NCBI GenBank assembly: GCA_029251405.1
Contig: JAQXDK010000008.1
Location: forward strand, 62,001 to 126,000
DNA: 64,000 bases
Direction of reading: 5' to 3'
Source of the DNA: Flavobacteriales bacterium
GTDB lineage: Bacteria; Bacteroidota; Bacteroidia; Flavobacteriales_D; Parvicellaceae
This document shows, one piece after another, positions 23,602 through 25,622 of this stretch; the stretch's first letter is position 1; each line of letters begins with the position of its first letter. A program made the translations under genes and the position numbers. Below the pieces are notes generated by a model. It was not told the DNA's origin, made no database searches, and saw only the letters and a program-made list of their open reading frames with translations.

Positions 23602-25146
23602 CTATAAAGAGTTATCTCCTTCGTCTAAAAATTGGTATTGTAAAATACCTAATTCCGTCATGGGTCTTATTGTAATCCATTTCTTATACTTGAGAAACCA
23701 TTGTCTTTGAATATTTTTAACTCCTTTTTTAAGAAAAGCGTCAATAAATGGATGAACATTTAAAGTAATTGTTTTTGCAACTCCTTCTATTATTATGGAA
23801 TTCAGCAGCGATTCTATTTCATCAATTATTAAAATAGAAGCTTGAACTTCTCCTTTGCCTAAACATGTTGGACAAGTCTCGGTAGTCTTAATTTCAGTTT
23901 CGGGACGTACTCTTTGACGGGTAAGCTCAACTACTCCAAACCTACTAGGTGGTTGGATATTGTGCTTTGCCTTGTCGTCTTTCATGTATTTTCTAAAACT
24001 TTCAATAAGTTTCTTATTATTTGGACGATTGTACATGTCAATAAAATCGACTGCAACAATACCACCCATATCTCTTAGCCTCAAAAGTCTAGCTATTTCT
24101 TCAGCTGATTCTAAATTAGTTTCAAGAGCATTTAGTTCTTGATCTGGATTTGTTGCCTTACGGTTTCCGCTATTAACATCTATAACGTGCATTGCCTCTG
24201 TATGATCAATAATTAAATAAGCTCCAGATTTTAGATTAACTTTTCGTCCGAAGGTCGCTTTGATCTGTTTATTGATTCCCCTGCTTTCAAACAAACTTAC
24301 TTTACCTTGATATAATTTGACAATTTCTTCTTTTTCAGGAGCGATTGTTTTAACATAATCTTTTAATTCTAAGTACAAGGATTCATCATCTACGTGAATA
24401 CTAGTAAATTCTTTATTAAGCTCATCTCTTAGAACTGTGGTTGCTCTATTCATTTCACCAAGTAATTTCTTTCTAGGTGATGCATCCTTGAGCTCCTTGT
24501 ACATCTTAGACCACTTATTCTCTAAATCTTTGAGGTCTTGATCTAATTCAGCAACTTTTTTATTTTGGGCAACAGTTCTAATGATAACACCAAATTTTCT
24601 AGGTCTTATGCTATTTATTAAACGCTTTAACCTTTCTCTTTCAGCAGGATCCTTGATTTTTTGAGAAACAGAAATTTTTTCTGAAAAAGGAACCAACACT
24701 AAAAATCTACCTGGTATCGTGACTTCTGCACTAAGCCTGGGACCTTTAGAAGAAATGGGCTCTTTTGTTACTTGAACCGCAATTAACTGGTTGGATGATA
24801 GATGTTCTTTTACTTTACCATCTTTAAGAATATCAGCCTCAATTTTATTATATCCTAATTTATGAGTTGATTGTTTACCACTTATAGACATTTGAACAAA
24901 CTTATTCATAGATCTATACTGTGGGCCTAAATCCAAATAATGTAAAAAAGCATCTTTTTCATAACCTACATCAACAAATGCAGCGTTAAGACTTGGCACT
25001 ATTTTTTTAACTTTTCCTAAGTAAACGTCTCCAACATTAAAACGGTCGTCAAGACCCTCTTTATGAATTTCAACTAATTTGTTTTCATAAAGTAATGCGG
25101 TTACAACTTCACTTGATGATGAGTTTATAACTAATTCATACGACAC
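23602..25146 (-). CDS. rng: Ribonuclease E/G family endoribonuclease
   Basis: A 514-residue RNase G-type endonuclease that cleaves single-stranded AU-rich RNA and matures ribosomal and messenger RNA. An S1 domain spans about residues 38-130 (GDVYLGKVKKIVPSLNAAFVDVGYEKDAFLHY). The catalytic magnesium residues lie in HVIDVNSGN (about 320-328) and GGIVAVDFIDM (about 362-372). The zinc-link cysteines are in TETCPTCLGKG (about 430-440). There is no long RNase E-type C-terminal scaffold. The start is GTG at 25146, preceded by AGGAGG four bases upstream, exceptional for this genome. The small bS22 gene and HU gene lie just upstream on the same strand. Confidence 0.93.
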   Translation of the reverse strand: MSYELVINSSSSEVVTALLYENKLVEIHKEGLDDRFNVGDVYLGKVKKIVPSLNAAFVDVGYEKDAFLHYLDLGPQYRSMNKFVQMSISGKQSTHKLGYNKIEADILKDGKVKEHLSSNQLIAVQVTKEPISSKGPRLSAEVTIPGRFLVLVPFSEKISVSQKIKDPAERERLKRLINSIRPRKFGVIIRTVAQNKKVAELDQDLKDLENKWSKMYKELKDASPRKKLLGEMNRATTVLRDELNKEFTSIHVDDESLYLELKDYVKTIAPEKEEIVKLYQGKVSLFESRGINKQIKATFGRKVNLKSGAYLIIDHTEAMHVIDVNSGNRKATNPDQELNALETNLESAEEIARLLRLRDMGGIVAVDFIDMYNRPNNKKLIESFRKYMKDDKAKHNIQPPSRFGVVELTRQRVRPETEIKTTETCPTCLGKGEVQASILIIDEIESLLNSIIIEGVAKTITLNVHPFIDAFLKKGVKNIQRQWFLKYKKWITIRPMTELGILQYQFLDEGDNSL

Positions 25147-25150
25147 TGGA

Positions 25151-25156
25151 CCTCCT
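25151..25156 (-). promoter_or_regulatory. Perfect Shine-Dalgarno site of rng
   Basis: On the minus strand AGGAGG precedes the rng GTG start with four bases between. It decides that start and stands out: none of the other starts I inspected in the window carries a comparable site. Confidence 0.75.
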
Positions 25157-25169
25157 ATCTGATAATAGC

Positions 25170-25199
25170 AAAGCGGTTACAACAAATTAATGTTGCTTT
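25170..25199 (-). promoter_or_regulatory. Hairpin in the bS22-rng intergenic leader
   Basis: On the minus strand an inner stem AACA/TGTT encloses TTAATT, and an outer stem AAAGC/GCTTT closes around it with six unpaired bases on the 3' side. It lies about 14 bases before the AGGAGG. It could be a processing site or an autoregulatory leader structure, or it may be chance in AT-rich sequence. Confidence 0.35.
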
Positions 25200-25210
25200 A
25201 AAAGAATGAA

Positions 25211-25300
25211 TTACTTCTTCTTATGTCTGTTTTTTCTCAGACGCTTCTTCCTCTTATGTGTTGACATCTTATGTCTTTTTCTTTTTTTACCGCTAGGCAT
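25211..25300 (-). CDS. Small basic ribosomal protein bS22 (AURKAIP1/COX24 domain)
   Basis: A 29-residue protein running from ATG at 25298-25300 to TAA at 25211-25213: it starts MPSGKKRKRHKMSTHKRKKR and ends RHKKK, so almost every second residue is Lys or Arg. The motif KxxKRxxHKxxxHKxKKRLRxxR matches the AURKAIP1/COX24 domain found in mitochondrial mS38 and in the tiny bacterial small-subunit protein bS22. As I recall, genomes of this phylum annotate it as an AURKAIP1/COX24 domain protein, often between HU and RNase G genes as here. It is too short for most gene callers. The gene is 31 bases from HU and 64 bases from rng. Confidence 0.85.
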   Translation of the reverse strand: MPSGKKRKRHKMSTHKRKKRLRKNRHKKK

Positions 25301-25331: not shown

Positions 25332-25622
25332 TTACTTCTTCTTAACCTTATTTTTAACTCCCTCGACAAAAGTTTTAGCTGGCTTAAATGTTGGAACAAA
25401 ATGTTCTGGAATAATAATCGTTGTATTTTTTGAAATATCCCTACCAGTTTTTTTAGCTCTTTTTTTAACAACAAAACTTCCAAATCCACGTAAATAAACA
25501 TTTTCACCTGTTTCCATCGCATCGATAATTGTTGTCATAAATGACTCTACTGTAGCTTGAACAGCTATTTTTTCGATGCCCGTCTTTTCTGTTATTTCTG
25601 AAACTAAATCCGCTTTTGTCAT
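25332..25622 (-). CDS. HU/IHF family DNA-binding protein
   Basis: A 96-residue nucleoid protein of the HU family. It starts MTKADLVSEITEKTG, continues with the helical dimer region, and has the signature GFGSFVVKKRAKKTGRDIS (about 46-64) that enters the flexible DNA-binding beta-arm. The arm residues here are NTTIIIPEHFVPTFKP, with the intercalating Pro in the IPEH segment as in many Bacteroidota members. A lysine-rich end (KNKVKKK) follows. It binds and bends DNA without strong sequence preference. The gene is divergent from mutY and first in the HU, bS22, rng row. Confidence 0.95.
   Translation of the reverse strand: MTKADLVSEITEKTGIEKIAVQATVESFMTTIIDAMETGENVYLRGFGSFVVKKRAKKTGRDISKNTTIIIPEHFVPTFKPAKTFVEGVKNKVKKK

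Follow-up and report, generated by a model that had tools for sequence, protein, structure and literature searches.

A strong, conserved Shine-Dalgarno element precedes the RNase E/G gene in one clade of marine Flavobacteriales

In Bacteroidia the tail of 16S rRNA is hidden in a pocket formed by bS21, bS18 and bS6, and Flavobacteriales typically have one gene with a strong Shine-Dalgarno sequence (SD), rpsU (McNutt et al., 2023, PMC9976891). In Flavobacterium johnsoniae, rpsU is marked by pairing below -13 kcal/mol, and loss of bS21 raises translation of reporters with a strong SD (PMC9976891). The locus described here raises the question of what a strong SD does in front of a different gene, rng, which encodes a ribonuclease of the Rne/Rng family. 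It lies in a 64,000-nucleotide stretch of a Flavobacteriales genome (the window), in the minus-strand gene order HU/IHF-family gene (25622-25332), bS22 (25300-25211), rng (25146-23602):

25332-25622, minus strand: HU/IHF-family DNA-binding protein, 96 aa (PF00216, E 2.4e-26)
25211-25300, minus strand: bS22, 29 aa, the gene immediately before rng (phmmer matches: 7jil chain 5, 9i5v chain 10)
25150-25163, minus strand: leader block ATCAGATAGGAGGT, invariant at 14/14 positions in 11 species of the genus
25150-25160, minus strand: extended SD element AGATAGGAGGT with core AGGAGG at 25156-25151, pairing with the 16S tail ACACCUCCUUUCU
25144-25146, minus strand: rng start codon GTG, the same in position and codon in most relatives
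23602-25146, minus strand: rng, Rne/Rng-family ribonuclease, 514 aa (TIGR00757, E 1.3e-126; PF10150, E 5.4e-94)

The ribosome-structure chains matched by the 29-aa protein are named S22 or AURKAIP1/COX24-domain protein (7jil, 9i5v). The gap between bS22 and rng is 64 nt, and the two genes are probably carried on a single transcript. The initial annotation had drawn attention to bS22 directly upstream of rng. Its position is as described, but bS22 also directly precedes rng in many Crocinitomicaceae relatives whose rng has no SD; the adjacency is therefore not tied to the SD, and bS22 was rejected as its cause. Many SD-less relatives carry a terminator-like hairpin between the two genes (for example AACTTAG...CTAAGTT) that is absent from the window's clade. 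One 70%-complete congener contains a second RNase E/G gene (G010:C95:1593-3116, 50% identity), perhaps contamination of that assembly.

The same annotation had placed AGGAGG four bases before the rng GTG, and both letters and coordinates were confirmed: the core is followed by TCCA and then by GTG, so that the extended element (25160-25150) ends 3 bases upstream of the start codon, within the intergenic gap. The 16S tail was taken from two congeners, in which it ends GGAACACCUCCUUUCUAGAG with CCUCC intact; the window's own assembly has no 16S 3' end. Against this tail the element is predicted to form 7 contiguous pairs and 3 more past a U/U mismatch, at about -14.2 kcal/mol (RNAduplex). Among the 49 gene starts of the window the next best value is -6.2 and the median -0.7 kcal/mol, which bears out the claim that the other starts have no such site. 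Genome-wide energies were ranked in the near-complete congener G007 (six contigs), and there rng has the strongest predicted SD among 1962 gene starts. The window's own genome was covered by a pattern search: AGGAGGTN3-8RTG occurs at 35 sites, 33 of them inside longer reading frames on the same or the opposite strand, which leaves rng and a 21-codon micro-ORF whose SD is stronger. Similar sites are not common, and the SD that had been called lone is indeed so within the window and nearly so in the genome, the exception being the micro-ORF. However, an exponential fit to the strength distribution in G007 predicts about two starts this strong per genome. Strength alone is therefore no proof against a chance match; conservation is.

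Within the genus the invariance of the leader block can be set beside fourfold-degenerate sites of rng, 13 of 135 of which are invariant (counted among ten of the 11 species), and AGATAGGAGGTN2-8RTG occurs exactly once per genome in 11/11 genomes. AGGAGG is conserved more widely as well. The rng SD is present in four genera of the family, g1 (the window's genus), g3, g4 and g5, and absent from the leaders read in the sister genera g2, g7, g8 and g9 and from each of the 64 rng leaders checked at greater distance. Matches to GGAGG...ATG in g2 and g7-g9 were set aside as starts, since by their sequence they appear to be in-frame Gly-Gly codons within genes. Across the four genera the core is constant, the spacer measures 4, 5 or 7 nt and the flanks vary; in g5 the AGAU extension is replaced by AAA (AAAGGAGGT) and pairing still reaches -13.6 kcal/mol, with -14.2 to -14.4 in g1 and g3 and only -10.2 in g4. 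Consecutive pairs number 7 in g1 (then the mismatch and 3 more), 9 in g5 and 6 in g4. In a tree of 78 rng sequences a branch with 100/100 support sets the SD-bearing genes apart from the rest, which fits a single gain. This pattern in the aligned leaders makes it very probable that the element is a functional SD maintained by selection. The literature searched contained no description of such an rng SD in Bacteroidota.

Other features of the leader appear less relevant. A hairpin had been described just upstream of the SD:

25170-25199, minus strand: leader hairpin of the initial annotation (z -0.31), considered outside the mechanism

Its letters are present (AAAGC 25199-25195, AACA 25194-25191, TGTT 25184-25181, GCTTT 25174-25170), but its special status did not hold. 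The outer arm is set off from the inner arm by a 6-nt one-sided bulge and is absent from the predicted minimum-energy fold; the outer stem is found in this genome only, not in the sister species. Compared with shuffles the leader is not more stable (mean z -0.43 over 17 leaders). Of 11 congeners, 10 retain the five pairs of the inner stem, one of which shows a compensating change; this is weak evidence. The hairpin was thus rejected as a regulatory structure because of its unremarkable z and genome-specific outer stem. Sequestration of the SD by the leader was likewise rejected: the rng leader contains no complement of AGGAGG, and what weak pairing is predicted varies from genus to genus. Pairing with precursor 16S rRNA beyond UCU was also discarded, as the precursor continues AGAGUAUUC, to which the leader has no match. 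Upstream of the SD, about ten further conserved bases (CCGCYYTGC-TAT-ATCAGA; 25161-25175) are not explained by SD pairing, and AATCAGAT is present in the SD-less leaders of g2 too.

The second strong SD of the genome lies outside the window:

G000:C36:6156-6172, minus strand: 21-codon micro-ORF (MSIIKNSKELVRLLVPFMHAS) with the perfect 13-nt SD AGAAAGGAGGTGT

Its site, AGAAAGGAGGTGTCAAATG, is complementary to the 16S tail over 13 nt without a mismatch (-21.2 kcal/mol) and is the strongest SD found, and it belongs to the same clade as the rng SD. The element occurs in 11 of the 399 genomes of the order that were searched, all in g1 (8/11), g3 and g4, with a conserved GCTGTGACAACAGC upstream and a terminator-like hairpin downstream. 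Ten of the 11 copies have exactly 21 codons; the peptide differs between copies, one of which stops early. A search of Rfam at the micro-ORF gave nothing near a curated threshold. An invariant GGTGCCT within the micro-ORF might pair with AGGTGTC of the SD, a possible alternative fold (about columns 44-50 and 93-99 of the alignment).

How could ribosomes of this clade use such sites? As in other Bacteroidia, they appear to bury the 16S tail in the bS21-bS18-bS6 pocket and to start translation without an SD: bS21 Tyr54 is kept, and bS18 and bS6 are close to those of solved Bacteroidia ribosomes. At the gene starts of G007, SD-like matches reach about half the frequency of mock windows, so SDs have not come back into general use. 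An SD is missing from rpsU in the clade and in those Crocinitomicaceae relatives that were examined, and from rpsR in G007. The general reasoning of the initial annotation, that an SD where the anti-SD tail is sequestered points to control by free-tail ribosomes, is in line with McNutt et al. (2023, PMC9976891). Autoregulation of rpsU had been invoked as the model for rng; the analogy holds as to mechanism, but SD-based autoregulation of rpsU does not exist in this lineage, since rpsU has no SD here.

The rng SD nevertheless shares features with the rpsU system of F. johnsoniae and other Bacteroidota (PMC9976891). In both, a strong SD stands in an SD-avoiding genome with bS21 Tyr54 kept and the CCUCC tail intact, here as read in two congeners, and the avoidance elsewhere in the genome that belongs with free-tail control of any gene is seen in G007. 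Pairing is below -13 kcal/mol in g1, g3 and g5 and falls short of it in g4, the values coming from RNAduplex here and from another program in PMC9976891. In contrast to the rpsU system, which regulates a protein of the tail pocket (bS21 or bS18) through an extended SD of 9-13 consecutive pairs, the gene here encodes a ribonuclease and the pairing is interrupted; moreover, rpsU itself carries no SD, unlike in Flavobacterium. The SDs of rpsR (bS18) and of further ribosomal genes in other orders of Bacteroidia resemble the rng SD in being isolated, in pairing at -7 to -14 kcal/mol and in standing in SD-poor genomes (PMC9976891), but they precede ribosomal protein genes rather than a nuclease gene.

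On these grounds, the free-tail translational switch known from rpsU may act on rng in this lineage, a reading by analogy to which we give about an even prospect. The SD, a genuine element that selection has maintained in one clade of marine Flavobacteriales, would turn rng into a client of just those 30S subunits that expose their tail, above all of those lacking bS21. These would be late assembly intermediates or damaged particles, and RNase E/G synthesis would rise as they accumulate. Because the Rne/Rng family matures and degrades rRNA and mRNA, a loop between the assembly state of the 30S subunit and RNA processing could result. In Escherichia coli, 5' maturation of 16S rRNA needs both RNase E and RNase G, according to the title of Li et al. 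(1999, cited in PMC3996153), and bS21 joins the 30S subunit late (PMC9976891). Together these make feedback from unfinished subunits onto the nuclease plausible. We infer the response of rng to bS21 or ribosome state, which the initial annotation had already put forward, as well as tail sequestration in the clade, the preference for bS21-free subunits and the physiological purpose. Against the switch, rng pairs more weakly than rpsU of Flavobacteriaceae (-17 to -20 kcal/mol by the same script) and with one mismatch, and it encodes no tail-pocket protein, so that a direct autoregulatory logic is missing. A wider version is more tentative: the free-tail regulon of the clade may have been rewired, rpsU having dropped out and rng and the lineage-specific micro-gene having entered, so that exposed-tail ribosomes would control RNA processing and not the supply of bS21.

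The rival that survives best, though we consider it rather unlikely, is that the SD is a plain constitutive booster at an intercistronic GTG after the very short bS22 gene and senses no ribosome state. The GTG start, the 64-nt distance and the probable common transcript fit this arrangement, and any ribosome with a transiently free tail could be helped by an SD. However, the same GTG serves the sister genera, and the same gene order is found in many relatives, in both cases without an SD, and SDs are otherwise avoided in the genome. Wild-type ribosomes of F. johnsoniae, furthermore, do not recognise SDs in vivo or in vitro (PMC9976891).

It is improbable, but less so than the explanations that follow, that the conserved block is some other element (a promoter, a site of RNase E/G self-cleavage or protein binding, or a small-RNA target) of which AGGAGG is a part without being an SD. 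Conservation does reach upstream of the SD, in the genus as CCGC..TG.TAT.ATCAGAT and in g4 and g5 as CGCTYTGC, and the bases shared with SD-less g2 point the same way. A precedent is RNase E of E. coli, which controls its own mRNA through cleavage of a structured 5' leader; both cases would place control in the leader of a gene of the RNase E/G family, whereas at rng a stable structure is unsupported and the conserved element is an SD. The AGGAGG core is the only part common to the four genera, and its distance to the start stays within 4-7 nt as everything else varies. The leader has no promoter motif of the Bacteroidetes type (TAnnTTTG) with that spacing and matches no known RNA family.

A general relaxation of tail sequestration in the clade, with SDs returning and rng as an early case, would accord with the lost rpsU SD and the two strong SDs of the genome, but SD-like matches at starts lie below the mock level and Tyr54 of bS21 is kept, so this is very unlikely. 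That the rng SD is a chance match without function, as the roughly two such starts expected per genome might allow, has next to no probability, being already contradicted by an SD that is invariant in 11 species and persists across four genera from a single origin.

A conserved SD on RNase E/G where rpsU has none would be a second kind of client, and would open to test whether bS21-lacking ribosomes regulate further genes. It would also link the assembly state of the 30S subunit to a nuclease of rRNA and mRNA. The strong, conserved SD gained by rng in this marine clade may couple RNA processing to ribosomes whose 16S tail is exposed.
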